Part shown: positions 4,623 to 30,993 of the stretch, one piece after another
How the letters are laid out: every line of letters begins with the position of its first letter
Numbering within the stretch: position 1 is the first letter of the stretch
Assembly (NCBI GenBank): GCA_017992055.1
Contig: JAGOPK010000002.1
Coordinates: forward strand, 248,001 to 312,000
DNA length: 64,000 bases
DNA from: Burkholderiaceae bacterium
GTDB taxonomy: Bacteria; Pseudomonadota; Gammaproteobacteria; Burkholderiales; Burkholderiaceae_C
Direction of reading: 5' to 3'
Translations under genes and position numbers: made by a program
Notes under the pieces: model-generated
Told to the model about the DNA's origin: nothing
Databases searched by the model: none
Seen by the model: only the letters and a program-made list of their open reading frames with translations

Positions 4623-4633
4623 CAGGCCCTCAT

Positions 4634-4649: not shown

Positions 4650-4652
4650 CCA

Positions 4653-4668: not shown

Positions 4669-4676
4669 GAGTTCGC

Positions 4677-5351: not shown

Positions 5352-5671
5352 GCGCCGTCCGCCCTGCCCTGCGCCGCTTCAAGGCGCCCAAGGCCGCCAG
5401 CGCCGCCGAATGCCGCACGCTGGAGCAACTGCCCAACATCGGCCCGGCGATGGCCGCCGACCTGCGTGCGCTGGGCATCCAGCAGCCGCAGCAGCTGGCC
5501 GCACAGGATGCGCTGTCGCTGTACCAGGCGCTGTGCCGGCACAGCGGCAAGCGCCAGGACCCCTGCGTGCTGGACACCTTCCTGGCCGCCACCGACTTCA
5601 TGCGTGGCGCCGCACCGGCGCCCTGGTGGGCCTACACGGCCGAGCGCAAGCGGCTGTACCGCGACATCTGA
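5348..5671 (+). CDS. Helix-hairpin-helix protein of the Cdd1 (pathogenicity-locus) family
   Basis: A 107-residue protein beginning at a GTG that overlaps the lexA stop (GTGA), so it is probably translationally coupled. A helix-hairpin-helix motif ([20 protein letters not shown]) binds DNA non-specifically in related proteins. The remainder, with the [16 protein letters not shown] segment, matches the small Cdd1-type family (PF11731). Its function is unknown. Co-transcription with lexA places it under SOS control, which suggests a DNA-repair accessory role; that is inference. Confidence 0.72.
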
Positions 5672-5694
5672 GCCGCGGCGCCGGGGGCCGCAAG

Positions 5695-6417
5695 TCAGCC
5701 CTGGCCGCGTGCCAGCAGTTCCACTGCTTCCACCAGGCGCCCGGCCTGGTCGGCCAGCGGCCGCTGCTCGTCGGCGGCCAGGCGTGACAGCCGCGCCTGG
5801 GCCTCGCTGCGCTGCAGCGAATAGCGGTGCATCAGGATGCCGATGGCCACCGCCACCAGGTCCAGGCGCTCGGGCGTGGCCACGGCCGGCGCGGCCGGCA
5901 CCGGCCCGGCCGGGGCAGCCGCGGCAACGGCCGGCAAAGCGGCTGCCGCAGTTGCAGCCGCAGCCGCCGCTGCCGCCGCATGCCGCTGCGGCAGATTGGC
6001 AAAGGCCGCTGCCACCGTGGGCAGGATCTGGCCGATGTCCAGCGGCTTGACCAGATAGGCCACGGCGCCCAGTTCACGCACCTGCTGCACCGTCTCGTCG
6101 TCGGCAAAGGCCGACAGGAACATGAACGGGATGTGCAGGTACTCGCGCAGATAGGCGGCGACATCGAAGCCGCTCTTGCCCTCCATGCGGATGTCCAGCA
6201 GCGCCAGCTCGGGCCGGTGCTCGCGGGCCAGCAGGATGGCGTCGTCACCGTTGTCGGCATCGATGACCTCGTAGCCGGCCTGCGACAGGCCATGGGTCAC
6301 GGTGGCCAGCACCAGGCGGTCGTCGTCGACGACCAGGATGCGGCCCTTGCCGGAGGCCGGCGCGGTGTCGCTGCGGCCGGCGGAAGGGCTGGGGGCATGG
6401 TCCAGGCTGCTGATCAC
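5695..6417 (-). CDS. Response regulator with RNA-binding ANTAR domain
   Basis: A receiver domain (about residues 28-145) has the DDD acidic pocket (VVDDDRLV), the phospho-acceptor Asp in LALLDIRM and the switch Lys in YLVKPLD. A long Ala/Pro linker (about 50 residues, including runs of alanine) leads to a C-terminal ANTAR domain with the AIGILMHRYSLQRSEA signature. ANTAR regulators bind two-hairpin RNA and block transcription termination. It lies 90 bases downstream of a HisKA_2 kinase, the usual partner of ANTAR proteins. I chose the GTG at 6417, just before the receiver; an in-frame GTG at 6486 would add an unlikely Arg-rich leader. Confidence 0.85.
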   Translation of the reverse strand: MISSLDHAPSPSAGRSDTAPASGKGRILVVDDDRLVLATVTHGLSQAGYEVIDADNGDDAILLAREHRPELALLDIRMEGKSGFDVAAYLREYLHIPFMFLSAFADDETVQQVRELGAVAYLVKPLDIGQILPTVAAAFANLPQRHAAAAAAAAATAAAALPAVAAAAPAGPVPAAPAVATPERLDLVAVAIGILMHRYSLQRSEAQARLSRLAADEQRPLADQAGRLVEAVELLARGQG

Positions 6418-6507
6418 GTCGTGGGCTCTAGGGTCGCGGGCGTTGCGGAAGCGGCGCCGTCGTGGCGATTGTCGCAAAGCCCGCACGCCGGGCGATGCCG
6501 CGCCGGC

Positions 6508-9500
6508 TCACAGGGGTTCCAGCAGCGAGATGCTGGGCGGCACCAGCACCACCCGGGCCTCGACCTCGACGCCGGCCTGGGCCAGGGTCAGCGTGGCGCT
6601 GCGCCGCGGCAGCAGGGCGCGCACCAGGCCCAGGCCCGATACGCCGGGCGGCACCTGGGCCAGGCTGAAGCCGGCGCGCAGCTGGCCGGGGTTGCGGATG
6701 GCCACGGTCAGCCGCGCCTCCTCGAACAGCAGCGCGCAGACGATGGGCGTGGGCCCCGGCGTGCTGTGCTTGATGGCATTGGTCAGCAGCTCGTTGACGG
6801 TCAGCGCGATCGGGATCGACTCGGCCTCGGGCAGCGCAAAGCGGTGCGGCGCCAGGCCCTCGACCTGCACCTGCACCTCGCGGCCGAAGGTGCGCTGCAC
6901 GCTGGCGGTGATGGCCTCGACCAGCGGCTTGACGCGCAGCGGCCCGCTGACACCGACCTGCAGCCCGTGCACCTGGGCGATGGCCTGCACCTGGCCCACG
7001 GCCTCGCTGATCAGCGGCGCCACCTCGGGCCGGCGCGCCGCGGTCTGCTGCAGCAGGCCGGCCACGCCCTGCAGGTTGTTCTTGATGCGGTGGTGCACTT
7101 CCTTGACCAGCATCTCGCGCTGCGAGATCGCGGCCTCGAAGCGGGCCTGCTCGGCCGCACGCTGCTCGGTCACGTCGCTGGCCACCAGCAGCAGCTGCGG
7201 CTCGGCGCCGGCCGAGTCCAGCGTGATGATGCGCATGTCCCAGATGCGCGTCTCGGCCAGGCCGGGCTCGTCGCTGCGCGACGGCCGCGACAGCTCGCGC
7301 CTGAGCCCGCCATCGTGGCCGGCATCGTGGCCGCCGTCGCCGTCCGCACGGCGCCGGGCGGCATCCAGGTCAGCGCGCAGCACCGCGGCATCGGCCGGCG
7401 CAAACCATTCGTCGGGCACGCGGCCCAGCACGGCCTCGACCGGGCGGCCGAAGAACATCGCCGCCATCTGGTTCAGGCGCAGCACGCGGCCGCTGGCGGC
7501 ATCGAACAGCGCAATCGCCAGCGGCGCGGTCTCGATGATGCGCTGCAGGCTGGCCTGGGCCTGGGCGATGCTGAACTCGGCCTGGCGGCGGCGCTCGATG
7601 TCCAGCAGCGCAAAGGTGATCTGCTGGCCCGGGCCGGCCACGCCGCCGGTGCCACGGCCGGCGCTGTCGCGGCCGGTGACCACGGCATTGCCGACGACCC
7701 AGAACTCGCGCCCGTCGCGGCCGCGCAGCCGGCATTCAAAGGTCTCGGCCTGGCCGTCGGACAGCGAGCGCTGGTAGTGGGTGGCGCGCAGCGGATGGTC
7801 GGCATCGGCGGTGGCCACGATGGCAATCGGCTCGCCGACGAAGTCGGCCAGCTCGCCGCCGAACATGCGCCGAGCCGAGCGGTTCATCCATTCGATGCCG
7901 CCGTCGCCGACGGTGACGATGCCGACCAGCACCGAGTCGAGGATGGCGCGCGTGCGCTCGGCCTGCAGCTGCACCGCCTCGCGGGCGCGGCGGCGCTCGT
8001 CGACATCGACATACGAGCAGATCAGGCCGGCGCCGGCATCGTTGTCGTCGACGCGGCGCTTGCTGACCTGCACCCACAGCAGGCGGCCGTCGCGGCGGCG
8101 CAGCCGGCGCTCGCCGCGCCACAGGCCGGCGCTGTCCAGCGCCTGCTGCTGCTGCGGCAGCAGCTGCTGGTGCGCCACCTCGTCCTCGAACAGCGCCGAC
8201 AGCGGCATGTGCTGCAGCTCGCCGACGGTGTAGCCGGTGAGCTGGGCCAGGGCCTCGTTGGCGCGCGCGATGCGGTCCTGGCGCAGATAGCTCAGGCCCA
8301 CGTCCGACAGGTTGAACATCAGCTCGCGCTCGCGCGCCAGCGCCTCCAGCTCCACCTGCTGGGCCTTCAGCCGCGACACATCGGTGAGCACCACCACCAG
8401 CTCGGGCTGGCCGTCGTCGGCCAGGGCCCGGCTGGCCGACAGCGCCAGCCAGCGCGCCGGCTGCGGGCCGGCAACAGCGTCGGCGGCCACCGCGGCGCGC
8501 TGCTGGAACTCGGTCTCGTGCCGCCCCTCCTCGGCCAGCGCGCGCTGCAGCAGCTCACGCACCGCCGGCGCATCGGGCAGCAGGTCGTCGAGGCGGGCGC
8601 CGGTGGCCAGGCCCTGCGGCAGGCCCAGCAGCACCTCGAACTGGCGGTTGCAGCGCAGCAGGTGCTCGCCGCGCAGATAGCCGATGCCGGCGGTCGTGCC
8701 TTCGAGGATGGTCGACAGCTCGCGCAGCAGCTGCTCGCTGCGACGGTGCGCCTCCTCCTGCTCGGTGACGTCGAGCGTGACCACGCTGAGCGCGGCACGG
8801 CCGCCGGTCAGCTCGCCCGGCTCGACCCGCGTCAGCAGCCAGCGCGTGCCCAGCTCCGGCACCTGCACCGCATAGCGCACCTGCACGCGCTGGCCGTCGC
8901 GCAGCGCGCGCTGCAGGCGCTCGAAGGCCTCGCGCGAGCCGGGCTCGACCTGCTCGCGGCCGATGGCCTGCAGCCCGGCCGGCAGGCCGGCCGCCGGCGC
9001 CTGGCCATCGCCGCCGGCCGCGCCGGGCCGCGCCGAGCGGCTGTTGACCCAGCCGCGCGAGGCCTCGTAGGTGGCCACGCCGACGCCGGCGGTGTCCATC
9101 AGCGCGCCGATCTCCAGCTGGGCCAGGTCGTGCTCGTCCTCCAGGCTGCGGTCCTCGACCACGGCCATCACGCGCAGCGCGCCCTGCTCGCTGCGGAAGG
9201 CGCGCAGCCGCGCGCGCAATCGCTGGCGCTGGCGCCGGCCGTCCTGGCCGCTGCTGCCGCTGCCGCCGGAGGCCGGCGGATGCGTCACCGTCGCCAGCAC
9301 CTCCAGCGGCGGCGCATCCGGGCGCAGGTCGGGATGCGGGCCGTCGCCCTCCCAGGCCAGCAACTGGGCCAGGTCGGACGGCGCCTCGTGCAGCAGCACC
9401 GGGCTCTGGCCGACCAGGGCCTCGAAGGCGGCATTGCTGCGCACCACCAGGCCGGCGGCGTCGTAGACCAGCATGCCGATCGGGCTGAGATCAAACCAGT

Positions 9501-19447: not shown

Positions 19448-20731
19448 TCAGCGCAGGCTGACCAGGGTCTGCATCACCGAGTCCTGGGTCTTGATGGTCT
19501 GCGCATTGGCCTGGTAAATGCGCTGCGCGACCATCATGTTCACCAGTTCCTGGGTCAGGTCCACATTGCTCTCCTCGACCGCACGCGAGTCCAGCAGGCC
19601 CAGGCTGCCGCTGCCCGGCGTGCCGCTGACCGGATCGCCCGAGGCATAGGTCGAGGCCCACATGTTGCCGCCCAGCGGCTGCAGGCCCTGCGCATTGCGG
19701 AAATTGGCCAGCTCCACGCGGGCGATCGGCGCCGACTGGCCGGTGGAATAGGTGGCCACGACCAGGCCGTCGTCCTGGATGTTGATGCCGGCCAGCAGGC
19801 CCGGGGCCGAGCCGTCCTGGGTCAGCGCCGTGGGGCTGAACGAGGCGCCGAACTGGGTGATGGACGACAGGTCCAGCTCGATCGGCGTGGTCAGCGTGCC
19901 GATCTGCACCGTCTCGGCCGAGGTGCCGGCGCCGGTGGCCGGGATGATCAGGCCCAGCGGCGACACCGGCGAGGTGGGCGCGCTGCCGTCGCTGGGAAAG
20001 CTCAGCGTGGTGATGGGCAGCGGGTTGCCGGTGGAGGCATCCTCCAGCACCGACTCGCCGTTGGCCGCGGCATAGATGTTCCAGGTGTCGTTGCCGGCCT
20101 TCTGGAAGAAGTAGGTCAGCGTCACCGCCTGGCCCTTCTCGTCGTAGACCTTCATCGAGGTGGTGTTGTTGTAGGTCTTGGCGTCGGTGAAGCTGACCGT
20201 GGTCAGCGGATTGCCGCTGGAATCGGTGGGCGTGACGGCGCGCGAGTCCAGGTTCAGCTCCAGGCCGATCTGGCTGGTCTGCGCCGGCGCGATGCCGGTG
20301 GTCGGCAGCTGCAGCGGCACGGCCTTGCCGGGGATCTGGCCGTCGTTGTAGGTGGTCGGGATGGCCAGCAGGTTCATGCCCTGGGCATTCACGACATAGC
20401 CCTCGCGGTCGACCTTGAACTGGCCGTTGCGGGTGTAGAAGGCGGCGCCGTCGGCATCGGTGAGCTGGAAGAAGCCCTCGCCGTTGATGGCCACGTCCAG
20501 CGGGTTGTCGGTGGCCGTGACGCTGCCCTGCTTGAACTGCTGGGCCACCGCCGCCACCGACACGCCCAGGCCCACGGCCCCGCTGTCGCCCGAGGCGCGG
20601 GCATAGATGTCGGCGAACTCGGCCCGCGACGACTTGGCGCCCACGGTGCTGGCATTGGCCACGTTGTTGCCGATCACGTCGAGGTTGCGGCCGGCGCTGT
20701 TCAGGCCCGTCACGCCTTGCTGGAAACTCAT
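19448..20731 (-). CDS. flgE: FlgE, flagellar hook protein
   Basis: A 427-residue hook subunit. N-terminus MSFQQGVTGLNSAGRNLDVIGNNVANASTVGAKSSRAEFADIYA; C-terminus NVDLTQELVNMMVAQRIYQANAQTIKTQDSVMQTLVSLR. I chose the ATG at 20731 because it begins the conserved MSFQQG and follows CAGGAGTG; an in-frame start at 20764 adds 11 unconserved residues. The 139-base spacer before it holds a 9-base triple repeat. Confidence 0.96.
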   Translation of the reverse strand: MSFQQGVTGLNSAGRNLDVIGNNVANASTVGAKSSRAEFADIYARASGDSGAVGLGVSVAAVAQQFKQGSVTATDNPLDVAINGEGFFQLTDADGAAFYTRNGQFKVDREGYVVNAQGMNLLAIPTTYNDGQIPGKAVPLQLPTTGIAPAQTSQIGLELNLDSRAVTPTDSSGNPLTTVSFTDAKTYNNTTSMKVYDEKGQAVTLTYFFQKAGNDTWNIYAAANGESVLEDASTGNPLPITTLSFPSDGSAPTSPVSPLGLIIPATGAGTSAETVQIGTLTTPIELDLSSITQFGASFSPTALTQDGSAPGLLAGINIQDDGLVVATYSTGQSAPIARVELANFRNAQGLQPLGGNMWASTYASGDPVSGTPGSGSLGLLDSRAVEESNVDLTQELVNMMVAQRIYQANAQTIKTQDSVMQTLVSLR

Positions 20732-20824
20732 CGCATCACTCCTGGTGCTGTCGTCGGCCGCCACGCTGCTGGCGCCGGCCGGGGTGAGGGCTCCGCGTGG
20801 CCGCGGCGCCGGTTCGGAAATCGG

Positions 20825-20851
20825 GACTGCTGGAACTGCTGGGACTGCTGG
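20825..20851. repeat. 9-bp unit repeated three times between flgD and flgE
   Basis: (G/A)ACTGCTGG occurs three times in tandem, at 20825-20833, 20834-20842 and 20843-20851, with one base variation. It lies between the flgD stop and the flgE start, and slippage could change that spacing. Confidence 0.7.
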
Positions 20852-20870
20852 ATCGGCGTGACGCCGCGCG

Positions 20871-21551
20871 TCAGCGCAGCGCGCGTACGCTGTCGTAGGC
20901 CACGGTCTGGCCGTTGGCCAGTTCCAGCTGCAGCGCGCCGCCGCTGGTGCTGACCGAGTTGACCTTGGCGCTGGTCAGCGCCGTGCTGCTGATGGTGCTG
21001 CCGCTCAGGCTGGCATTGACGCGGAAGCTGTACTGGCCGGTGGCCTCCAGGCCGCTGGCCGAGAACGAGAAATCGTGGCGGCCGCTGGCCTGCGCACCCA
21101 GGTCCAGGGTCTTGATGACCTGGCCGGCGGGGTTGAGCACGTCCACCGTCACCTTGTCCGCGGCCGAGCTCAGCTCGTAGCCGGCGCCGGCCTTGCCGTC
21201 GGCGATGCCGATGGCGTCGCCCGGCACCACCACCTCGCGGCCGACCATGGCCGCGCCCTGCAGCGCCTGCATCTGCACGAACTGCGTGCCCAGGCTGCCG
21301 ATGCTGGCATTGAGCTGCTCGATGCCGGTGACGGTGCTGATCTGCGCGATCTGCGAGGTCATCTGCGCGTTGTCCATCGGGTTCAGCGGGTCCTGGTTGG
21401 TCAGCTGCGTGGTCAGCAGCTTCAGGAAACGCTGGTTCTGCTCGCTGGACGTGGGCGTGGCGCCGCTGGACTTGCTGCTGCTGGTGCTGCTGCTGGCCCC
21501 GTTGAGGAAGTCGTAGGGATTGCTGGTGCTGTTGGAGACGGTGGCGGCCAT
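20871..21551 (-). CDS. flgD: FlgD, hook capping / assembly protein
   Basis: A 226-residue hook scaffold protein. The conserved N-terminal half contains QNQRFLKLLTTQLTNQDPLNPMDNAQMTSQIAQISTVTGIEQLN, the FlgD hallmark. The C-terminal half is the Tudor/FnIII-like domain (YELSSAADKVTVDVLNPAGQVIKTLDLG). A Ser-rich stretch (residues about 19-35) precedes the core. It caps the growing hook and is later displaced by FlgK. Confidence 0.95.
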   Translation of the reverse strand: MAATVSNSTSNPYDFLNGASSSTSSSKSSGATPTSSEQNQRFLKLLTTQLTNQDPLNPMDNAQMTSQIAQISTVTGIEQLNASIGSLGTQFVQMQALQGAAMVGREVVVPGDAIGIADGKAGAGYELSSAADKVTVDVLNPAGQVIKTLDLGAQASGRHDFSFSASGLEATGQYSFRVNASLSGSTISSTALTSAKVNSVSTSGGALQLELANGQTVAYDSVRALR

Positions 21552-21591
21552 GGCGTCTTTCTGCGTTCAGTGCGTCAACGGGGCGCGGCGA

Positions 21592-21999
21592 TCAGGACTG
21601 GCCCATCTGCAGCGTCTTCAGCAGCAGGCTCTTGGCGGTGTTCATGACTTCGATGTTGTTCTGGTACGAGCGCGAGGCCGAGATCATGTTCACCATCTCC
21701 TCGACCGCGTTGACGTTGCTATAGCTGATGTAGCCCTGGTCGTCGGCGTCCTGGTGGCCGGGGCTGTAGACCTTGCGGTGCTCGGCGTTGGACTCGACCA
21801 CGTTGCTGACGCGCACGCCGGCCGCGGTGACCTCGCCCATCAGCGTGGTCTCGAACACCACCTGGCGCGCCTTGAACGCCGGGTTGTTGCCCTTGGAGGT
21901 GCTGTCGACGTTGGCCAGGTTGCTGGCCACCACGTTCAGGCGCTGGGTCTGGGCGCTGACGGCACTGCCCGAGACATCGAAGATCTTGAACATGCTCAT
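21592..21999 (-). CDS. flgC: FlgC, proximal rod protein
   Basis: A 135-residue rod protein. N-terminal MSMFKIFDVSGSAVSAQTQRLNVVASNLANVDS and C-terminal YSNVNAVEEMVNMISASRSYQNNIEVMNTAKSLLLKTLQMGQ are the FlgC signatures. It lies between flgB and flgD with 37- and 40-base spacers. Confidence 0.96.
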   Translation of the reverse strand: MSMFKIFDVSGSAVSAQTQRLNVVASNLANVDSTSKGNNPAFKARQVVFETTLMGEVTAAGVRVSNVVESNAEHRKVYSPGHQDADDQGYISYSNVNAVEEMVNMISASRSYQNNIEVMNTAKSLLLKTLQMGQS

Positions 22000-22036
22000 G
22001 GCGGGGCTCCTGGGCGATTGCGGATCTCAGCGGGCA

Positions 22037-22456
22037 TCAGCCCTGGCTGGCGCTCTTCATCGCGTCCAGCATCGAGCGCACGCTGCCGTTGATGAAACGC
22101 AGCGTGGCCTCGTAGCGCACGGTGTTGTCGGCCAGGCTGGCGCGCTCGCGGTCCAGGTCCACGGTGTTCTGGTCCACCGAGTCCTGGGCATTGCGGGCAT
22201 AGACCAGCGGGTTGTCGCCGTCCAGGCGCTGGCTGCCAGCCAGGCGCGACAGCCGCGCCAGGCCGCTGTTCGGGTCCAGCCCGGTCGGCGTATCGGTGCC
22301 GGTGGCTTCGCGCAGCGCCCGCTCGAAATCCATCTCCAGCGCCACATAGCCGGGGGTATCGGCATTGGCGATGTTTCCTGCCAGCAGACGCTGACGCTCG
22401 GACCGCAGGTTCAGCGCCTGGGCCTGGAAGTCGAGCGATTGGGTCAGTCGTTGCAT
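22037..22456 (-). CDS. flgB: FlgB, proximal rod protein
   Basis: A 139-residue rod protein starting MQRLTQSLDFQAQALNLRSERQRLLAGNIANADTPGYVALEMDFE and ending with VRYEATLRFINGSVRSMLDAMKSASQG. It is the first gene of the minus-strand rod/hook series and is divergent from flgA across a ~115-base spacer in which I could not identify a convincing promoter. Confidence 0.96.
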   Translation of the reverse strand: MQRLTQSLDFQAQALNLRSERQRLLAGNIANADTPGYVALEMDFERALREATGTDTPTGLDPNSGLARLSRLAGSQRLDGDNPLVYARNAQDSVDQNTVDLDRERASLADNTVRYEATLRFINGSVRSMLDAMKSASQG

Positions 22457-22570
22457 GGGGGGACCTGGTGATGCGATGGCATTGTGGGCAGGCCGCGCCG
22501 GAACATGAGCGCGAAAAGCCGCCGCAAGGCCGCTCAATTCGCCGCCATGGCCACGGCGCCCGCAGGCACC

Positions 22571-23347
22571 ATGCGCAGCGTGATGAAACGCCTGTGTCAG
22601 CGCCCGTGCGCCCGCGCCCTGCCCCATGCCCTGGCCAGCGCCGCGGCCATGGCCATGGTGGCGACGGCCATGGCCCAACCCCTGCCGCGCGACGGACAGG
22701 ACCCGGCGCAGGACCTGGCCCTGGCCCGTCACATTGAAAGCATGGTGCGCGAGGCCGCCGCCCTCGCCTGGCCCCAGGCCCAGCCCGCGCCGCGGGTCGA
22801 GGTGGTCGTGGGCCGGCTTGATGCGCGGCTGAAGCTGGCGCCCTGCCGCCAGGTCCAGCCCTATCTGCCCACCGGCAGCCGCGCGGTGGGCAATGTCCGC
22901 ATCGGCCTGCGCTGCGTGCAGGGCGAGAAGGCCTGGAACGTGTATCTGCCGGTGAGCGTCAAGGTGTTCGGCCGCTCGCTGGTGGCCGCCGGCCCCCTGC
23001 CGGCTGGCACCCGGCTGACCGAGGCCCATCTGGTGGAGGCCGAGGTCGACCTGGCCGCGCGCAACGACGTCGCCATCGGCCAGCCCGCGCTGGCCCTGGG
23101 CCGCACCCTGGCCAACGGCCTGAATGCCGGCCAGCCGCTGTACCGCGGTGACCTGCGCGTGCGCCAGTGGTTCAAGGCCGGCGACGTGGTGCGGGTGGTG
23201 GCCATGGGCCCGGGTTGGCAGATCAGCAGCGAAGCCCGCGCGCTGGATGCCGGCCAGGAAGGCCAGCCGGTGCGTGCGCGCACCGACAATGGCCATGTGG
23301 TGACCGGTCTGGCCACCGCCGAACGGCGCCTGGAGGTGCCGCTGTGA
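22571..23347 (+). CDS. flgA: FlgA, P-ring assembly chaperone
   Basis: A periplasmic chaperone that assists FlgI polymerisation. A signal peptide (hydrophobic core ASAAAMAMVATAMA) precedes the mature chain. The SAF domain is visible as LVAAGPLPAGTRLTEAHLVEAEVDL, and the end (WQISSEARALDAGQEGQPVRARTDNGHVVTG) is typical of FlgA. Several in-frame ATGs exist (22484, 22547, 22571, 22583); I prefer 22571, or 22583 for the shortest leader. Confidence 0.92.
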   Translation: MRSVMKRLCQRPCARALPHALASAAAMAMVATAMAQPLPRDGQDPAQDLALARHIESMVREAAALAWPQAQPAPRVEVVVGRLDARLKLAPCRQVQPYLPTGSRAVGNVRIGLRCVQGEKAWNVYLPVSVKVFGRSLVAAGPLPAGTRLTEAHLVEAEVDLAARNDVAIGQPALALGRTLANGLNAGQPLYRGDLRVRQWFKAGDVVRVVAMGPGWQISSEARALDAGQEGQPVRARTDNGHVVTGLATAERRLEVPL

Positions 23348-23359
23348 AGACCGCCCAAG

Positions 23360-23374
23360 CCCCGAAATGCGGGG
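23360..23374 (+). terminator. Weak hairpin after flgA
   Basis: CCCCG, loop AAATG, CGGGG, followed by TGTTTTCC, starting 13 bases after the flgA stop. The stem has only five base pairs, so termination would be partial at best. It separates flgA from the flgM sigma-28 promoter. Confidence 0.4.
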
Positions 23375-23384
23375 TGTTTTCCGA

Positions 23385-23397
23385 TTTCGCAGCGAAA
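23385..23397. repeat. Palindrome beside the flgM promoter
   Basis: TTTCGC-A-GCGAAA is a perfect inverted repeat whose right edge is 4 bases before the -35 of the flgM promoter. It could be a regulator-binding site. No binding protein can be named from the sequence. Confidence 0.4.
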
Positions 23398-23401
23398 GCC
23401 C

Positions 23402-23428
23402 TAAAGTCCGGCCTGGCCGGGTCGATAC
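23402..23428 (+). promoter_or_regulatory. Sigma-28 (FliA) promoter of flgM
   Basis: TAAAGTCC (23402-23409), an 11-base spacer, then GTCGATAC (23421-23428) match the FliA consensus TAAAGTTT-N11-GCCGATAA with exact spacing. It lies about 50 bases before the flgM ATG, as expected for class 3 expression of the anti-sigma factor. Confidence 0.8.
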
Positions 23429-23480
23429 CCCGTTCATGTCATAGGAGAGGCCGACCCGGCCCTCCTTGCTGGAGTCCACC

Positions 23481-23771
23481 ATGAAGATCGGTCAACTGGA
23501 AACCAAGGGCGTCACCCCGGCGGTGAGCGAGCGTCGCGCAGGCAGCGCGGCGTCGAGCACGGCGGCAGGCGAGGCCAGTGCCAAGGTCGAGCTGTCGGCC
23601 ACCGCCGCGCAGCTGAAGGCCGATGGCGCCGAAGGCGTGTTCGACGCCGAGAAGGTCAAGCGCATCTCGGATGCCATCCGCGACGGCAAGTTCGAGATCA
23701 ATGCCGACGCCATCGCCGACAAGCTGATCAACAACGCCCGCGAACTGCTGGGCAACGTCGGCAAGTCCTGA
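23481..23771 (+). CDS. flgM: FlgM, anti-sigma-28 factor
   Basis: A 96-residue protein starting MKIGQLETKGVTPAVSERR. The C-terminal half (VKRISDAIRDGKFEINADAIADKLINNARELL) is the FliA-binding helix region of FlgM. It holds FliA inactive until hook completion allows FlgM export. It is preceded by a FliA promoter and followed by a hairpin and flgN. Confidence 0.93.
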   Translation: MKIGQLETKGVTPAVSERRAGSAASSTAAGEASAKVELSATAAQLKADGAEGVFDAEKVKRISDAIRDGKFEINADAIADKLINNARELLGNVGKS

Positions 23772-23778
23772 TCCACCC

Positions 23779-23799
23779 TCCCGGCCCGCAAGGCCGGGA
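23779..23799 (+). other. Perfect hairpin in the flgM-flgN spacer
   Basis: TCCCGGCC, loop CGCAA, GGCCGGGA gives an 8-bp perfect stem 8 bases after the flgM stop. No T-run follows, so it is more likely an mRNA-stability or partial-attenuation element than a full terminator. Confidence 0.5.
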
Positions 23800-23817
23800 C
23801 CACCGCGACGCCCAGGC

Positions 23818-24243
23818 ATGCAGTATTCGAGCGCTGAGATGGCCGCCGTGCAGGCACAGGCCGGCCTTTCCAAGGATCAGGATCTGGATCCGCTGGTGAC
23901 CCAGGTCGAGCAGCGCCTGCAGGCGCTGGCCGATGCGCTGCGCAGCCGCGATGCCCCAGCGGTGGAACTGCACGCCAGCGAGCTGCACCACGATCTGGCC
24001 CGCGCCGTCGAAGCCTGCATGCACCAGGCCCGCCATGGCGGCGTGCCCGCGGCCATGCGCCTGCGCCTGGCCCAGGCCGGGGCGATGGTTGCGCACCAGC
24101 GCGAGATGATGGCCCGCGCCACCGCGGCGCTGGACCGCGCCATCGACGTGCTGATGCCGCCGGCCAGCAGCGGCCGCGGCGCGCTGTACGGCGCCAACGG
24201 CCGCGCCGACGGCTATTCGCGCAGCGGCGGCTTCAACGCCTAA
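23818..24243 (+). CDS. flgN: FlgN-like export chaperone for FlgK/FlgL
   Basis: A 141-residue, predominantly helical protein beginning MQYSSAEMAAVQAQAG. Position (directly after flgM, as in most proteobacteria), size and a central heptad-like helical region support FlgN, the cytoplasmic chaperone delivering FlgK and FlgL to the export gate. Sequence conservation of this family is low, so the call rests largely on context. It converges on hslO with a 12-base gap. Confidence 0.75.
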   Translation: MQYSSAEMAAVQAQAGLSKDQDLDPLVTQVEQRLQALADALRSRDAPAVELHASELHHDLARAVEACMHQARHGGVPAAMRLRLAQAGAMVAHQREMMARATAALDRAIDVLMPPASSGRGALYGANGRADGYSRSGGFNA

Positions 24244-24255: not shown

Positions 24256-25242
24256 TCACTGCATCGCCGACGACGACGGCGGCGCCTCGCGCCCGGGCGT
24301 CAGCAGCTCGGCCACGTCCACCGGGTCGAAGCGGTACTGCGCACCGCAGAAGTCGCAGCCCACCTCCACCGCGCCGCGTTCGGCCAGGATGCCCTCCAGC
24401 TCCTCGGCGCCCAGCCCCTGCAGCATGCCGCTGACCTTGCCGCGCGAGCAGCTGCAGGCAAAGCGCGGCGCCAGCGGCTCGAACACACGCACCGTCTCCT
24501 CCCAGAACAGCCGGCGCAGCAGCTCGGCGGGCTGCAGCGTCAGCAGTTCCTCGCGCGTCAGCGTGCCGGCCAGCATGGCGATGCGCTGGTAGTCCTCCTG
24601 CGTGCCGATGTGGCGCTCGTCCTGCCGCCCGCCCTCCAGCGGCAGGCGCTGGATCAGCAGGCCCGCGGCCACCTCGTCGTCGGCCGCCAGCACCAGGCGC
24701 GTATCGAGCTGCTCGGACTGCAGCATGTAGTGCTCCAGCACCTGCGACAGCTGCTGCAGCGGCTCGCGCTGGTCGCCATGCAGCGGCACCACGCCCTGGT
24801 AGGGCTGCTGGCCCGGCAGGCGGTCACGCGGATCCAGCGTGATCGCGCAGCGGCCCTGGCCGCCGACATTGACCAGGGCCTCCAGGCCCGGCCCGCCGGC
24901 GCCGGCGGCCTCGCCGCCCACCTCGCCCACCACCTCGCCCACCACCTTGGCGGTCACGCGAAAGCTCAGCTCCGGCTGCGTCTCGCACACCGCCAGGCGC
25001 ACCGGGCCGTCGCCCTGGATCTGCAGCACCAGGGCACCGTTGAACTTCAGGTTGGACTGCATCAGCACGCCGGCGGCGGCCATTTCGCCCAGCAGCGCCC
25101 GCACCGGCGGCGCAAAGGCATGGCCGCCGTCGCTGACCGTGGCGCGGCGCGACATGGCCTCGCGCCAGGCCGGGCCCAGGCGCACCAGCATGCCGCGCAC
25201 CGGCAGACCCTCGAACATGAACTTCAGCATCTGATCCATCAC
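24256..25242 (-). CDS. hslO: Hsp33, redox-regulated chaperone
   Basis: A 328-residue Hsp33. The C-terminal zinc-binding redox switch is complete: CSC (FACSCSRGKVSGML) and CDFC (VGCDFCGAQYRF), spaced as in the family. Oxidation releases zinc and activates holdase function in the cytoplasm. A Gly/Val/Glu-rich insertion (VVGEVVGEVGGEAAGAGG, residues about 100-117) is unusual. Start is the double Met at 25242/25239. It follows the carbonic-anhydrase-like gene by 12 bases. Confidence 0.94.
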   Translation of the reverse strand: MMDQMLKFMFEGLPVRGMLVRLGPAWREAMSRRATVSDGGHAFAPPVRALLGEMAAAGVLMQSNLKFNGALVLQIQGDGPVRLAVCETQPELSFRVTAKVVGEVVGEVGGEAAGAGGPGLEALVNVGGQGRCAITLDPRDRLPGQQPYQGVVPLHGDQREPLQQLSQVLEHYMLQSEQLDTRLVLAADDEVAAGLLIQRLPLEGGRQDERHIGTQEDYQRIAMLAGTLTREELLTLQPAELLRRLFWEETVRVFEPLAPRFACSCSRGKVSGMLQGLGAEELEGILAERGAVEVGCDFCGAQYRFDPVDVAELLTPGREAPPSSSAMQ

Positions 25243-25254
25243 CGGCCTCCGCGC

Positions 25255-25794
25255 TCAGCCGCCGTGCGGCAGGTCGATGCGCTGCAGCTGCTGGCGGTGG
25301 CGCTGCTGCTGCTGCACGTAGTAGGCGGCGCTGAGCTTCAGGCGCTCGATCTGCTCGGGCGTCAGCTCGCGCACCACCTTGGCTGGGCTGCCGACGATCA
25401 GCACGCCGTCGGGAAACTCCTTGCCCTCGGTGACCAGGGCACCGGCGCCGACGATGCAATGGCGGCCGATGCGCGCGCCGTTGAGGATCACGCTGCCGAT
25501 ACCGATCAACGAGCCATTGCCTATGCTGCAGCCGTGCAGCATCACCTGGTGGCCGATGGTCACGCCCTCGCCCACCGTCAGCGGCACGCCATGGTCGGTG
25601 TGCAGCACGCTGCCGTCCTGCACATTGCTGTCGCGGCCGATGCGGATGTGGTCGTTGTCGCCGCGCAGCACGGCGCCGTACCAGACGCTGGCGTTCTCGG
25701 CCAGCGTGACGCGGCCGATGACCTCGGCGCGCTCGGCCACCCAGGCGCTGGGATGGATGTCGGGGTTCAGATCGCCGAGACGGTAGATGGCCAT
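25255..25794 (-). CDS. Gamma-carbonic-anhydrase-like left-handed beta-helix protein
   Basis: A 179-residue hexapeptide-repeat protein (repeating I-G-x-x-x-V units). The residues VLHTDHG and [10 protein letters not shown] supply the three histidines that bind metal in gamma carbonic anhydrases (YrdA/PaaY type). The trimer would be cytoplasmic. Catalysis cannot be assumed, because many family members show no CO2 hydration. The ATG at 25794 begins the conserved [21 protein letters not shown]. Confidence 0.85.
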
Positions 25795-25837
25795 CGAAAG
25801 AGGTCCTGTGCTGGGGCTGCGGTCTATCATTTTAGGG

Positions 25838-26647
25838 ATGACCCTCGATCCCGTCCCCGGCTCGCTGAGACAGGCCGCGCTGCAGGCGCTGCAGATCGCC
25901 GACCCCGCCGCCAAGGCCCAGGCCGCGCAGCAGCTGCTGCAGGCCGCCCGCGCCGGCCGGCTGCGGCCCGACCCCGGCCTGGACCTGGCCGAGCCGGCCG
26001 GCCTGCCCGGCCGCCCGCCGCGGCCGCGGCTGGTGCCGCCCAAGCAGGTGCCCACGCGCAGCGTGCACACGCCGCAGGGACGTGCCGCGCTGCTGCATGC
26101 GGTGGCGCACATCGAGTTCAACGCCATCAACCTGGCACTGGACGCGGTGTGGCGCTTTGCCGGCCTGCCCGAGGCCTACTACCTGGACTGGGCCCAGGTC
26201 GCCGGCGAGGAGGCCCTGCACTTCGGCCTGCTCAGCGCCCACCTGGCCACGCTGGACCACCGCTACGGCGACTTCGATGCCCACGACGGCCTGTGGACCA
26301 TGACCGAGCTCACCAAGCACGATCCGCTGGCGCGCATGGCCCTGGTGCCACGCACGCTGGAGGCGCGCGGCCTGGATGCCACGCCGCCGATGCAGGCCAA
26401 GCTGGCGGCCGCCGGCGACACCGCCGCGGTGGCCATCCTGGACATCATCCTGCGCGACGAGATCGGCCATGTGGCCATCGGCAACCGCTGGTACCGCTGG
26501 CTGTGCCAGCGCGACGGCATCGATGCCGAGGCGGCCTATCCTGAACTGGTGCAGCGCTATGCCGCGCCGCGGCTGCGCCCGCCGTTCAACCACCCGGCGC
26601 GACGGGCGGCGGGCTTCAGCGAGCAGGAGCTGCAGTCGCTGGGCTGA
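25838..26647 (+). CDS. DUF455 ferritin-like protein
   Basis: A 269-residue protein of the DUF455 ferritin-like family (PF04305). Likely metal ligands appear as [19 protein letters not shown] (ExxH) and [13 protein letters not shown] (ExxH), the pattern of a di-iron helical bundle. Family function is not established. It is divergent from the carbonic-anhydrase-like gene over 43 bases, and its 3' end overlaps the convergent nucleotidyltransferase gene by 32 bases. Confidence 0.85.
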
Positions 26648-27761
26648 AACGCGCCATCCAGGCCTTGCGCAGCAGGTGTGGCAGCAGCAGGTGCAGGGGC
26701 ATGCGCAGCCAGTGCGAGCGCAGGTAGGCGGCCGATGCCAGCAGGGCCCGGCCCGGCCCCGGGCCGCCGCCGGGCTCGGGACTGAGCATCTCGGCCAGCA
26801 TCAGGCGCAGCATCCAGGCACTGGGTCCACGCGGTGCCCAGCCCGCCAGGCGCCGGGCGGCAAGCGCCGGCGGCACCACATCCAGCATTGCCTCGGCCTG
26901 CGACACCACGGCCCACAGCGGCCGCTGCAGCTGCAGGGCCTCGGCCCGGTCCAGCAGACGGGTCCAGAAATCCGGCTCGTCGGCGGCGAAGTGGTGCAGG
27001 AGATCGCGGATGTCCAGCAGATCGCGCAGACCACGCTCGAAGTCGCCGTCGGTGTACAGGTGCACGGCCGAGTGCAGCACCATGTCGACCGGCTGCAACA
27101 CCCAGAAGCGCGGGTCCGGCCCCGCCGGCCGGATGGCCGCCAGCAGTTGCCCGCCGTCGACGCGGAACCTGGAGGTCGGCGGAACAATCGTGTGGTGCAC
27201 GTCGAGCACGGAGCCGCGCTTGAAGTGCGTCAGCGGCGGCAGCTCGTGCATCCACTGCCGGTAGTAGCGCTGGTTGTACGCGTCCTGCTCGGTCGAGATC
27301 CAGCCGCCGCCCAGCAGTGCAGCCTCGGCCGCGGCCAGCGCCTCGTGCGGCACCAGCAGGTCGATGTCGCCAAAGACCCGGCCACGCGCAGGCGGCAGGC
27401 CGGCCAGCAGATAGGCCGCGCCCTTCAGCAGCACCGTGCGGTGGCCGGCCACCGCCAGCGCGTCCGCCACACGCTCGCATTCGACCTGCACCGCTTCGGC
27501 GCGGCGGGCCGCCATCAGCAGCGCCGCCCGCAGATGGGGCTCGGGACCGGACGCCTCGATTGCGGCAGCCTCGCTGCCGATCATGCCCTGCGACGCCAGA
27601 CGCCGGTCCGGGATCAGCGGGTCTGCCCCCCCCGGCAGACTGTTGCGCGCCAGCCGCGCCAGCACGCCCGCCCGGCGGGCCTGGCCGATCAACCGCTCCC
27701 AGTCGGCAGCGGGCAGGCCATCCAGGCCATTGCGGGCGCAGAGTGCAGCAGCCAGCAGCAT
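26616..27761 (-). CDS. Nucleotidyltransferase-family protein of the HPr-rel-A module
   Basis: A 381-residue protein of the PF14907 nucleotidyltransferase family. The catalytic-type motif is visible as TVLLKGAAYLL followed by GRVFGDIDLLVPHEALAAAEAALLGGGW (Asp-x-Asp near residue 132). Downstream HHTIV and VLHSAVHLY are typical of the family. Homologues act as accessory enzymes in some lasso-peptide clusters. Here it is the last gene of a three-gene run after the PqqD-like protein and HprK-like kinase, with a 5-base spacer, so it is presumably co-expressed with them. Substrate is unknown. Confidence 0.8.
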   Translation of the reverse strand: MLLAAALCARNGLDGLPAADWERLIGQARRAGVLARLARNSLPGGADPLIPDRRLASQGMIGSEAAAIEASGPEPHLRAALLMAARRAEAVQVECERVADALAVAGHRTVLLKGAAYLLAGLPPARGRVFGDIDLLVPHEALAAAEAALLGGGWISTEQDAYNQRYYRQWMHELPPLTHFKRGSVLDVHHTIVPPTSRFRVDGGQLLAAIRPAGPDPRFWVLQPVDMVLHSAVHLYTDGDFERGLRDLLDIRDLLHHFAADEPDFWTRLLDRAEALQLQRPLWAVVSQAEAMLDVVPPALAARRLAGWAPRGPSAWMLRLMLAEMLSPEPGGGPGPGRALLASAAYLRSHWLRMPLHLLLPHLLRKAWMARFSPATAAPAR

Positions 27762-27766
27762 CGCCG

Positions 27767-28765
27767 TCAGGCCCGGACCCGTTCACCCGGTCGGGCATCG
27801 CACGCCCCGGGCCGGGCCTCGGGCGGCAGCCAGCCTGTGTCGGCCAGGGCACAGAACCATTGCATGGCCTCGCCGAGACGGCTGTACTCGAAGTCGAAGC
27901 ACTGTGCGCCGGCCACCAGCCGGCAGATCAGGTCGAAGCCATCGCGGCCGAACAGGTTGATGTTGAAGGCATTGCGCCCGACGGCCACCACGGTGGACGC
28001 CCTGGAGCGGGGTTGCGCCTGCATCGGTGCCTCGGCCCGATAGCGTGGAAACACGATCCAGCGCAGCACGGCCGGTTCTTCCATGCGCAGCACATGGTCC
28101 GACGGCACCCGCAGATGGGCCACCCTGCCCTTGGAGGTTTCCCGCACCTCCGGACTGAAGACCGCCGAGGGCACGAACGCCCGCATCACCTCGATGGAGG
28201 CATTCTTCAGGCTGACCGGGCGGCACAGCGGCCAGATCCGACCGTCGCGCACCGACACCAGGGCCAGTTCGTCCGAGAGCAGCCGCCAGCCGGAGTGCAT
28301 CAGCGCCGCGCACAGCGTGCTCTTGCCCGAGCCGGGTGGCGCTGGCAGCAGCAAGGCGCCGCCGTTGCGCTCCAGCACCGCCGCATGGACGATCAGAAAC
28401 CAGTGCGCATGGCTGGAAATGCACCAGTTCATGCCCCATTCCAGCAGCGGAAAGGCCTGGCTCTGCGGCAGGGGCTCGAACGGCGACTGCCCGTCGAACA
28501 GGAAGCGCGCCTGGCGATGCCACCAGCGATGCACACCCCGGCCCGGCGCCAGCGAGACATCGAAGTCGACGAAGTCCCCGTCCCCGGCCAGGGGCATGTC
28601 CGGGTACAGCAGGCCCAGGCCTTCGGCCACGCCCTCGTGGACAGACCGGATGCGAAAGCGGAACGGGCCCGTGCGCAGCCTCAGACCGGCCCCGGCCAGG
28701 CGCTGACGCAGCGCCTGCGCCTCCAGGCTGCCCAGCGTCGGCTGCCGGCGGTCGGCTAGCGACAT
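27767..28765 (-). CDS. HprK-related kinase A
   Basis: A 332-residue protein related to HPr kinase/phosphorylase. A P-loop (LPAPPGSGKSTLCAALMHSG) follows HAAVLERNGGALL near residue 140, and LLSDELALV supplies the acidic motif after it. It lacks the N-terminal DRTGL-type domain and is not near an HPr or PTS gene, so sugar regulation is unlikely. This matches the HPr-rel-A kinase family as I recall it (TIGR04352). Related kinases phosphorylate serine in peptide natural products. Its start lies inside the end of the PqqD-like gene (10-base overlap). Confidence 0.85.
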   Translation of the reverse strand: MSLADRRQPTLGSLEAQALRQRLAGAGLRLRTGPFRFRIRSVHEGVAEGLGLLYPDMPLAGDGDFVDFDVSLAPGRGVHRWWHRQARFLFDGQSPFEPLPQSQAFPLLEWGMNWCISSHAHWFLIVHAAVLERNGGALLLPAPPGSGKSTLCAALMHSGWRLLSDELALVSVRDGRIWPLCRPVSLKNASIEVMRAFVPSAVFSPEVRETSKGRVAHLRVPSDHVLRMEEPAVLRWIVFPRYRAEAPMQAQPRSRASTVVAVGRNAFNINLFGRDGFDLICRLVAGAQCFDFEYSRLGEAMQWFCALADTGWLPPEARPGACDARPGERVRA

Positions 28766-29049
28766 TCGAGGATCAGGCCCATGTCGAGCAGTTCGCCCAG
28801 GCCGTCGGTGACATGCTGCCGCAGCGAGGCCGTTGGATCGGCCGCCTGGGCCGACTCGTTGCCCAGATGCTCGAACAACTCGGACGGGCTCTTCGGCCCG
28901 TCCTCGAGCAGCACCAGCGCGGCGGCCGTCCAGGGCTCGGGGCGCAGCAGAACTCCGGTGCGAGGCTGGAACACCACCCACTCGCCATCCAGTTCCGTCC
29001 AGACCAGCGGCGACTCCAGCGCATACCGGCTCGGGTGAACACCCTCCAC
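28756..29049 (-). CDS. PqqD-like peptide chaperone of the HPr-rel-A system
   Basis: A 97-residue protein from a GTG start. VVFQPRTGVLLRPEPWTAAALVLLEDGPKSPSELFEHLG has the PqqD fold pattern: a beta hairpin with a Gly turn, then an L-L-xx-G winged-helix-like region. PqqD proteins bind the leader peptide of a substrate and present it to modifying enzymes. No PQQ genes occur here; the kinase and nucleotidyltransferase downstream are the partners. It matches the PqqD variant I recall as TIGR04353. Confidence 0.78.
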   Translation of the reverse strand: MEGVHPSRYALESPLVWTELDGEWVVFQPRTGVLLRPEPWTAAALVLLEDGPKSPSELFEHLGNESAQAADPTASLRQHVTDGLGELLDMGLILECR

Positions 29050-29092
29050 CTTGCTCAGCCGCCCTGCCCTCGGGCCATCCCGGCCGCGCCGA

Positions 29093-29899
29093 TCACCAGC
29101 TGCTGGCCGTGCAGAGTGCCCGGAAGAACTTGATCGCGCCGGCGCGGTTGTCGCGGTACTGCTTGGCCATGTAATTGGCGTCGAGCGGGATGCGGCCGCC
29201 CTCCTGCAGGTTCGAGACGGCGTTGTCGTCCTTGGCCGCGCTCAGGTAGGCCGCGGCCGCAAAGGATTCGTCGGAGTTGTTGAAGAGCACTCGCAACACA
29301 TGGACATCGGGCGACAGGGACACCCCCATCATCACGCCGAAAAAGGCCAAGGCCTGGATCACCGAGGTGGGGAACAGGCTGGACGCCCGCACCCACTGGA
29401 TGGTGCCCCCCGAACCGGTTCTGAACGTCTGCCAGTAGATCGTCGTCCCGATGCCCACGGTTCCCCCAGCGATCAGGGTGTTGGCATTGGTGAAACTCAG
29501 CGTCACCGGCGGCGTCAGGCTGGCAAACGCGGCCGTCAGGCCGGCAACCTGCCGGGCATTGCCCGAATTGCTGCCGGTCGTGGCGTCTGCGTAATTGAAG
29601 GTGCCGGACTCGATCAGCGCCGAGGGCTTGAGACCGACGCAGGTGGTCAGGGTCTGGCCCGGGGCCACCGAGATGGCAGCCGACTGGAAACCCGACACCG
29701 AGCAATAGCCATTGCCGGGCGGCACCAGGGTCTCGTTGCGCAGCACATAGGACCGCGTGGCGTGGCTGGCCAGCGGCGCCCCGACCAGGCCCGCCGCGGC
29801 CGCGCCCTTGCCCAGCGCAGCCAGCACTCTGCGACGGTGGGCGACGGCTTCATCGACCGACGCCTCAGCGGGTGCGATGGATTGGGGAGGCAGGGACAT
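29093..29899 (-). CDS. Exported protein of unknown function with Tat-like signal, upstream of HPr-rel-A genes
   Basis: A 268-residue protein that I do not recognise. The N-terminus AHRRRVLAALGKGAAAAGLVGAPLASHA resembles a twin-arginine signal with cleavage after SHA. The mature part is rich in Ser, Thr, Gly and Asn, with three cysteines (NGYCSVS, LTTCVG, RALCTASSW), and ends in TASSW. It reads as a folded secreted protein. It is the first gene before the PqqD-like gene (43-base spacer, same strand) and could be the substrate of the module, but nothing proves this. The region 29900-30087 upstream contains no further gene I can support. Confidence 0.6.
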   Translation of the reverse strand: MSLPPQSIAPAEASVDEAVAHRRRVLAALGKGAAAAGLVGAPLASHATRSYVLRNETLVPPGNGYCSVSGFQSAAISVAPGQTLTTCVGLKPSALIESGTFNYADATTGSNSGNARQVAGLTAAFASLTPPVTLSFTNANTLIAGGTVGIGTTIYWQTFRTGSGGTIQWVRASSLFPTSVIQALAFFGVMMGVSLSPDVHVLRVLFNNSDESFAAAAYLSAAKDDNAVSNLQEGGRIPLDANYMAKQYRDNRAGAIKFFRALCTASSW

Positions 29900-30087
29900 G
29901 GTAAGACGCTCCGAGCGGGGCCGCCGGGCGGACGACCTACGGCGATGAGTTTACCGACCGCAGCACAGCGGCTTTCGCTCGGGCCTCCCCGTGGATGGGG
30001 GTTCCGCCACAAGATGCATGCGAAATCGGCCACGTTTGACGGCAAACCCGGCGCAAACAGAGTGCGCAAGCCCTCCAACGGCCCGGT

Positions 30088-30993
30088 TCACGCCCTGGGA
30101 TGGTGCTTCTGGTGCAACTGCCGCAGCCGCTCGCGCGCCACATGGGTGTAGATCGTTGTGGTGGCGATGTCGGCATGGCCGAGCAGCATCTGCACCGCGC
30201 GCAGGTCGGCGCCGTGGTTCAGCAGGTGCGTGGCAAAGGCATGGCGCAGTGTGTGCGGCGACAGCGGAACCTCGATGCCGGCCTCGCGGGCATGGCGCTT
30301 GACCAGGGTCCAGAACATCTGCCGCGTCATCGGTCCGCCGCGGGCGGTGACGAACAGCGCGTCGCTGAGCTGGCCGGACAGGATCACCGGCCGGGCCTCG
30401 CGCAGATAGCGCTCCATCCACTCGCCGGCCTCGACGCCGAACGGCACCAGGCGCTCGCGGCTGCCCTTGCCACTGACCCGCAGCACGCCCTCGGCCAGGC
30501 CCACGCGCACCGTGGCCAGGCCGACCAGCTCGCTGACGCGCAGGCCGCTGGCGTACATCAGCTCCAGCATGGCGCGGTCGCGCAGGCCCAGCGGCTGGGC
30601 CAGGTCCGGCGCCGCCAGCAGGGCCTCGACCTGGGCCTCGCTGAGCACCTTGGGCACGCGCATGGGCATGCGCGCGCTGTCCAGGCGCAGCGTCGGATCG
30701 GCCTGGATGCGCCGCTCGCGCAGCGCCCAGCGGAAATAGCGCTTGAACACCGTCAGCCGGCGGTTGGCGGTGCTGGCCCGGCTGCCGGCATGGCGGTGGG
30801 CGGCGTAGCCCAGCAGATCGCTTTCGCGGGTCTCGTCCAGGTCGCGGCCGCTGCCGTCGGCCAGCCAGTGCGCATACAGCGTCAGGTCGCGGCGGTAGGC
30901 TTCCAGCGTCAGCCTGGCCAGGCCGTCCTCCAGCCACAGCGCATCGCTGAAGCGGCGGATGGCCTCGCGGCTGGCCGCCGACAGGCTGGGCAT
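30088..30993 (-). CDS. xerD: XerD, site-specific tyrosine recombinase
   Basis: A 301-residue recombinase resolving chromosome dimers at dif with XerC and FtsK. The full catalytic set is present: Arg in YASGLRVSEL, Lys in VSGKGSRERLV, HxxR in SPHTLRHAFATHLL, His in LLGHADIATT and nucleophile Tyr in TTIYTHVA. Length and end (ERLRQLHQKHHPRA) are typical of XerD. The ATG at 30993 begins MPSLSAASREAIRRF. No dif-like site is visible nearby. Confidence 0.92.
   Translation of the reverse strand: MPSLSAASREAIRRFSDALWLEDGLARLTLEAYRRDLTLYAHWLADGSGRDLDETRESDLLGYAAHRHAGSRASTANRRLTVFKRYFRWALRERRIQADPTLRLDSARMPMRVPKVLSEAQVEALLAAPDLAQPLGLRDRAMLELMYASGLRVSELVGLATVRVGLAEGVLRVSGKGSRERLVPFGVEAGEWMERYLREARPVILSGQLSDALFVTARGGPMTRQMFWTLVKRHAREAGIEVPLSPHTLRHAFATHLLNHGADLRAVQMLLGHADIATTTIYTHVARERLRQLHQKHHPRA

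Follow-up and report, generated by a model that had tools for sequence, protein, structure and literature searches.

We describe here a module of four genes on a 64,000-nucleotide stretch of DNA from a Burkholderiaceae bacterium (assembly GCA_017992055.1, contig JAGOPK010000002.1; the whole stretch is called the window below). The genes encode an HprK-related kinase, a PF14907 nucleotidyltransferase, a PqqD-like protein, and an exported partner protein. We consider it reasonably probable that they form a protein modification system like those of ribosomally synthesized and posttranslationally modified peptides (RiPPs), in which the twin-arginine translocation (Tat) signal of the partner doubles as a leader and a serine near the mature N terminus is decorated before export. 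An initial annotation of the range 26616 to 29899 had described the other three genes as a stripped-down modification system. The module does stand without lasso peptide machinery among the genes scanned, but the upstream partner, whose gene lies inside that range and starts at its last base, 29899, had been overlooked.

All four genes are on the minus strand, and the partner gene is codirectional with the PqqD-like gene, 43 bases upstream of it (Table 1). The tight packing noted earlier for the other three agrees with the coordinates and strand: kinase and PqqD-like genes overlap by 10 bases (28756 to 28765), and 5 bases separate the nucleotidyltransferase and kinase genes (27762 to 27766). 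A Pfam and NCBIfam scan of the eight proteins in 24256 to 30981 found no family over its cutoff for pyrroloquinoline quinone (PQQ) enzymes, the phosphotransferase system (PTS), or lasso cyclases, as had been claimed, nor for macrolactam cyclases, B2 leader peptidases, archaeal-type SpI peptidases, or MsbA-like transporters.

A conserved exported partner accompanies the kinase

We compared 121 kinase loci, comprising the window, 40 loci from genomes within its family, and the best 80 of at least 345 relatives from named genomes, the last mostly beta- and gammaproteobacteria with some alphaproteobacteria and Malonomonas. Two entries (L043 and L074) represent a single contig, which leaves 120 distinct loci. 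Partners were searched with a model run against stop-to-stop frames and trained on 105 loci, the candidates coming from a crude regular-expression pick that allowed R[RHKSQ]. A conserved exported partner across loci was what the initial annotation had proposed to look for, and a homologue was found in 120 of the 121, with every one of the 125 partner rows on the kinase strand. The partner lies upstream of the kinase in 113 loci and downstream in 7 (directly after the nucleotidyltransferase in L050), and 5 loci carry two copies; thus, the link between partner and kinase survives rearrangement.

These counts are partly circular, as 105 of the 120 partner-bearing loci trained the partner model, and the A3 model has members in common with the 200-genome family draw described below. 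Cleaner tests are provided by 16 left-out loci, a draw of class genomes (partly independent), a leave-out test on the window, and the 23 short-peptide matches that were not seeds of their own model. The partner was matched in 15 of the 16 left-out loci. When the window and L065, a relative from the same genus, were left out of the model, it still recognized the window partner with an E value of 4.6e-8, the next of the 674 window frames reaching 0.22.

Kinase and partner also occur together across genomes. Among 200 genomes of the same family, the partner (E value of ≤1e-3) was present in all 49 with a kinase over the cutoff versus 9 of 151 others, and the matches in those 9 were weak (5.9e-5 to 9.0e-4). 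Among the matches listed for 369 genomes of the class, it was present in 39 of 41 kinase genomes versus 13 of 328 others. In one of the two misses (G456), the kinase lies where a contig ends; in the other (G290), two further searches place a partner with an RR signal next to the kinase. Of the 13 genomes without a kinase over the cutoff, six (G235, G300, G382, G482, G515, and G557) carry short peptides close to HprK-like kinases that score below it, three are considered with the points of doubt below, and the rest have weak partner matches.

Conserved residues of the partner

Neither the window partner nor the partner family as a whole has a Pfam or NCBIfam entry over cutoff. Mean column identity in the alignment of 125 rows is just 12 to 13%. 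The twin arginine is present in all 125, a Cys in 123, the first Ser/Thr of a [ST]-[GA]-x-x-S motif in 123, and its second Ser in 119; a third Ser (103 rows), a second Cys (107 rows), and the Asn of an LNA motif (112 rows) are conserved as well. The context of the arginines is mostly S/A-RR-R/K-L/F, and the Pfam TAT_signal model reached an E value of 0.01 in only 1 of 81 partners. In 107 of the 125 rows, the first motif Ser stands 5 to 9 residues past the end of the signal.

Behind the signal, GYW and LNA motifs mark the small domain that forms the body. The predicted structure of a Sulfuricella partner (L100) has a confident core, with a mean predicted local distance difference test (pLDDT) score of 79.3 and a score of at least 90 for 114 of 237 residues. 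No match to this fold was found in the PDB (best Foldseek E value, 2.4), so the structure gives no function. A match to the gliding motility protein AgmC (20.5 bits versus a cutoff of 275, in 1 of 81 members) was dismissed as chance, and a profile match to a steryl-sulfatase in the PDB (E value, 0.13) was too weak to be used.

A GYW/LNA-like domain was also seen, in two copies each, in giant repeat open reading frames (ORFs) of about 1,300 to 2,200 amino acids in the window genome and three others (L158, positions 3582 to 9080 of the minus strand on contig 3 of the window genome, and L159 to L161). These ORFs are on contigs other than that of the kinase or far from it, the domain in them is conserved and looks extracellular, and the repeats around it resemble SdrD-type proteins. 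Separately, L068, L072, L170, and L177 have the same RR signal with a different body that ends near a Cys, beside more divergent kinases; perhaps these represent a second type of long partner.

The PqqD-like protein resembles leader-binding domains

The best family match of the window PqqD-like protein is TIGR04353, at 25.9 bits versus a cutoff of 35; PF05402 gives 13.6 versus 23.4. Although both scores are below the curated cutoffs, the earlier identification holds, in that a model made without the window and L065 recognized the protein with an E value of 7.2e-13 (next of 674 frames, 0.23) and its predicted structure (pLDDT, 89.3) matches RiPP recognition elements (RREs). The best Foldseek match is TbiB1 with its leader peptide (5v1v; E value, 6.0e-4). 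The top six are lasso RREs solved with leader peptides (TbiB1 five times and then the B1 protein of 6jx3), four of them with E values below 0.001, followed by ThcOx, PqqD, PbtF, and MccB. A sequence profile ranks the same two lasso RREs first, weakly (E values, 0.0063 and 0.0098). The PqqD-like protein thus models as an RRE closest to those of lasso peptides. By a model trained on 103 of the loci, a PqqD-like gene adjoins the start of the kinase gene in 118 of 121 loci and lies downstream in L120; that model found none in L073 or L083.

The kinase and nucleotidyltransferase have intact motifs

The initial annotation had named an HPr-rel-A kinase and a PF14907 nucleotidyltransferase, and both are well over their cutoffs (384.1 bits versus 200 for TIGR04352 and 169.8 versus 31.2, respectively). 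By this match, the kinase belongs to the HPr-rel-A set of NCBIfam (TIGR04352 plus TIGR04353); its PqqD-like neighbor falls below the cutoff for the second family. Inactive enzyme motifs, which had been raised as a possible sign against the system, were not seen. In the kinase, the Walker A residues G145-x-G147-K148-S149-T150, D165-E166, and H127 are invariant in 24 aligned sequences, and in the nucleotidyltransferase, D132-x-D134, D187, H189, and H190 are invariant in 22. A nucleotidyltransferase was found with the window query in 40 of the 40 loci tested. A profile match of this protein to AbiEii-type toxins in the PDB (E value, 0.065) was too weak to be used.

Some related kinases adjoin short peptides with a similar leader

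Some kinases below the threshold in the class adjoin peptides of 56 to 90 amino acids with the signal SRRxFLKKxAYVAPAILTLxAxPAxA followed by Gly-Ser, which is at most a few residues away from the signal in all 13 aligned short peptides. PqqD-like genes occur in four of these loci (L162, L165, L167, and L173), two of which (L165 and L173) also have PF14907 genes; L163 and L164 have the peptide and kinase only. The fuller sets are L179, where nucleotidyltransferase, PqqD, a 58-amino-acid peptide, and kinase form one run; L180, with all four genes on mixed strands; and L188, with all but the kinase on its short piece.

A model of the 13 short peptides gave 36 matches in 24 of the 369 class genomes, 23 of them (counted by hand, among the kinases listed) no more than about 3 kb from an HprK-like kinase. 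Thirteen of the matches near a kinase are short peptides, 9 of which are themselves seeds of the model. Without the 13 seeds, 14 matches are near a listed kinase (4 short peptides and 10 long partners) and 9 are not. The 10 long partners adjoin TIGR04352 kinases, and PqqD-like and nucleotidyltransferase genes lie next to 1 of the 9 (G550:C135). Among 19 loci with a kinase match that were scanned, a Tat-type peptide was present in 11, most of which had been chosen for a peptide match.

Several variations on these loci were observed. In L168 (1562 to 2821, minus strand), PqqD (51.1 bits by Pfam) and an HprK-like kinase form a single ORF, and our own models give PqqD::kinase ORFs in L178 (4138 to 5346, minus strand), L181 (4293 to 5480, plus strand), and L184 (2098 to 3312, minus strand). 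L175 (2871 to 5306, minus strand; 812 amino acids) has an HprK-like kinase fused to GT2 and GT25 glycosyltransferase domains, adjoining PqqD-like and nucleotidyltransferase genes, a fusion that hints at glycosylation of a phosphorylated product. Four loci (L166, L171, L172, and L189) have short Gly-Ser peptides with a Tat leader and no kinase on the stretch examined; these peptides may be served in trans or cut off from a kinase by contig ends.

Comparison with known systems

The initial annotation held that the role of such a module had not been described. The general kind was published in May 2026 as the LPP RiPPs of Bacillota (LppA, LppB, LppK, LppN, LppS, and LppD; PMC13381572, cited here and below for its available part). 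LPP clusters are cyclase free and combine an RRE with an HprK-like kinase and a nucleoside triphosphate (NTP) transferase; LppK phosphorylates S3 of the core, which S3A abolishes, and the final product was not identified there (PMC13381572). Our module likewise has a discrete RRE, an HprK-like kinase, an NTP transferase (uncharacterized in LPP), and no macrocyclase (PMC13381572). LPP precursors are 35 to 200 amino acids long with a conserved N terminus, a Ser close to the N terminus of the core being phosphorylated, and were first met in capsular polysaccharide loci; Bacillota as hosts, a leader motif of YxxPxVLxHQxIxFETxxS, an archaeal-type signal peptidase, and an MsbA-like exporter set LPP clusters apart (PMC13381572). 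In contrast, the present system is mostly proteobacterial, has a twin-arginine leader and no peptidase or exporter among its four genes, and usually has as its candidate substrate a protein of about 200 amino acids with a predicted folded domain. Reading through the window partner, we found no LPP leader motif.

The lasso peptides paeninodin and pseudomycoidin (PadeK, PsmK, and PsmN) share with the module an HprK-like kinase and a nucleotidyltransferase, acting there on a Ser of the precursor as proposed for the module, whereas the macrocycle, cyclase, leader peptidase, and C-terminal Ser are features of the lasso clusters (available part of PMC9266682). In pseudomycoidin, PsmK phosphorylates the Ser, and the hexose added to it needs PsmN, with a host glycosyltransferase as a possible contributor (PMC9266682). 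Because the leader motif was looked for in the partner, and the peptidase, exporter, and cyclase among the eight scanned proteins, and none was found, we class the module neither as LPP nor as lasso. In bufferins and other RiPPs made by MNIO enzymes, a Sec signal peptide replaces the leader, and some precursors are long for RiPPs; these differ in using Sec rather than Tat and in having MNIO enzymes with DUF2063-type partner proteins (available part of PMC12452194).

Our literature searches found no paper on a proteobacterial version with a Tat leader and no functional paper on the NCBIfam HPr-rel-A pair. Searches that combined RiPPs with a twin-arginine leader surfaced works on lanthipeptide phage display and a lantibiotic complex, and family names returned nothing or papers on lasso peptides, RRE-Finder, RiPPER, and LPP.

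Proposed mechanism and points of doubt

In the scheme that we favor, the twin-arginine signal at the N terminus of the newly made partner would also act as a leader. The PqqD-like RRE would bind this leader in the cytoplasm and hand the partner to the kinase, which would phosphorylate, or possibly polyphosphorylate, the motif Ser (S69 and/or S73 in the window partner). The nucleotidyltransferase would then put a nucleotidyl or sugar group on the phosphoserine, and the decorated protein would be exported by Tat and lose its signal. The outcome would be a small Cys-containing domain with a tag near its N terminus, outside the membrane. The scheme builds on the observed conservation of the partner, of its twin arginine, and of its Ser residues, on the RRE fold, on the intact enzyme motifs, on a kindred leader at some short-peptide loci, and on the joining of PqqD and kinase in one ORF. 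We infer the order of these steps by analogy with LPP and pseudomycoidin, the Tat signal standing in for the leader; the choice of substrate and of Ser, the chemistry, passage through Tat, and the biological role are likewise inferred.

Several observations weigh against this scheme. The window partner is divergent: its S69 is about 20 residues past the signal, unlike in most rows, its LNA reads LSA, and the aromatic residue of GYW is Leu. Across the family, the first motif Ser is absent from 2 rows and the second from 6, and the Ser-Gly conservation may be structural. The Tat assignment of the partner signal is a reading of its motif. L083 has neither a partner nor a PqqD-like gene by our model searches, and three class genomes (G279, G298, and G413) match the domain half of the partner strongly with no kinase over the cutoff among the matches listed. 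Nor is the leader uniform; the short-peptide model misses the window partner and reaches just 20 of 125 long partners, and 13 of its 36 matches are not near a kinase among the matches listed. A Tat-type peptide was found in only one of nine distant loci chosen by the kinase alone (L168; not in L169, L175, or L182 to L187, the eight without a peptide among the 19 scanned); thus, the wider kinase group does not share a Tat leader throughout. Finally, the scheme as a whole is argued from sequence, structure models, and analogy rather than from biochemistry.

Alternative explanations

The partner could be the substrate and yet be modified on another residue, such as the Cys or the LNA Asn, with [ST]-[GA]-x-x-S being a structural or sorting signal. 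Both residues are likewise conserved, and the GYW/LNA domain also exists away from the kinase, as a plain extracellular-looking domain of the giant ORFs. The Ser motif, however, is mainly specific to the partner: seven of the eight giant-ORF domain matches start at profile position 78 or later, past the motif (about 70 to 74), and one starts at 69. The LNA Asn is Ser in the window partner, and the kinases of this type described in the literature phosphorylate Ser (available parts of PMC13381572 and PMC9266682). We judge modification elsewhere to be unlikely. Slightly less likely, in our view, is a role in export regulation, by which the PqqD-like protein would be a Tat signal chaperone, phosphorylation of the chaperone or signal would be a release switch, and the mature protein would stay unmodified. 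Dedicated Tat chaperones exist, which counts for this explanation, as do the invariant RR signal and the PqqD-like gene, which most loci have between the partner and the kinase. It leaves the nucleotidyltransferase without explanation, however; the RRE fold is nearest to RiPP leader binders, and the conserved Ser is behind the signal and not within it.

It is also possible, if improbable, that the systems with short and with long precursors are not related, draw separately on one set of enzymes, and share only a generic Tat signal, so that the label of a RiPP-like precursor is wrong. Generic Tat signals are alike, and the limited reach of the short-peptide model and the lack of such a peptide at most distant loci chosen by kinase fit this idea. 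The small number of short-peptide matches in the class draw speaks against it, as does the finding that 14 of the 23 nonseed matches, 10 of them long partners, are near a listed HprK-like kinase. That the module is an ordinary carbon catabolite HPr kinase/phosphatase system in disguise is hardly credible. The kinase profile does align to HprK (1jb1; E value, 8.6e-5), but the kinase scores only 13.6 bits against TIGR00679 (cutoff, 240), a separate canonical HprK (321.6 bits) is present elsewhere in the window genome, and none of the four genes matched an HPr family. We rejected an HPr/PTS kinase on the TIGR00679 score and the separate HprK.

Features and neighborhood of the module

Table 1. Positions of the four genes and of selected partner sites in the window
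Feature	Position	Strand	Remarks
Exported partner, 268 amino acids, proposed precursor/substrate	29093..29899	-	R23-R24 Tat-type signal, C66, S69-G-F-Q-S73
Twin-arginine codons R23-R24 of the partner signal	29828..29833	-	RR invariant in 125/125 family rows
C66-S-V-S69-G-F-Q-S73, proposed modification site in the partner	29681..29704	-	Conserved Cys and [ST]-[GA]-x-x-S
PqqD-like protein, 97 amino acids, RRE fold, proposed leader-binding chaperone	28756..29049	-	Predicted structure, Foldseek
HprK-related kinase A, 332 amino acids	27767..28765	-	TIGR04352; intact Walker A motif and acidic pair of the HprK type
PF14907 nucleotidyltransferase, 381 amino acids	26616..27761	-	D132-x-D134, D187, H189, H190 invariant

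The module is flanked by a DUF455 gene and a gene for a XerD-type recombinase. Nearby, 19448 to 24243 holds what we take, from the sequence, to be flagellar genes for rod and hook, along with ORFs resembling flgM/flgN. The window genome has two exosortases, both away from the module. Four neighbor clusters recur among the 121 loci, in 29, 28, 16, and 23 loci, which we read as presumably exopolysaccharide export, chain-length, sugar-transferase, and PEP-CTERM tetratricopeptide repeat proteins, respectively; 11 of the 121 loci have a neighbor that, from its sequence, we assume to be an ABC-ATPase-like protein. Exopolysaccharide and PEP-CTERM-like genes do not surround the window module; they recur at other loci and are given as context only.

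Implications

The HPr-rel-A pair gains a defined partner and a candidate substrate with two named serines, S69 and S73. More tentatively, the module may represent a class of RiPPs and modified proteins that is widespread and mainly proteobacterial, in which an RRE reads a Tat signal as leader, the kinase and nucleotidyltransferase build phospho- or phosphoglycoserine in the cytoplasm close to what will become the N terminus, and Tat exports a peptide of about 25 to 60 amino acids or a folded domain without a PDB match to the envelope or exopolysaccharide matrix. We hold this wider reading to be possible rather than probable, slightly less likely than at first, as only one of the nine kinase-chosen distant loci had a Tat peptide. 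If the four-gene scheme is true, RiPP-type chemistry would extend to Tat-exported proteins, and a Tat signal would act as the leader for an RRE; in the available part of PMC12452194, leaders of the signal type are Sec signals. Decoration in the cytoplasm would then be a way to tag extracellular proteins, and natural product discovery would have ready targets in the short-peptide loci.

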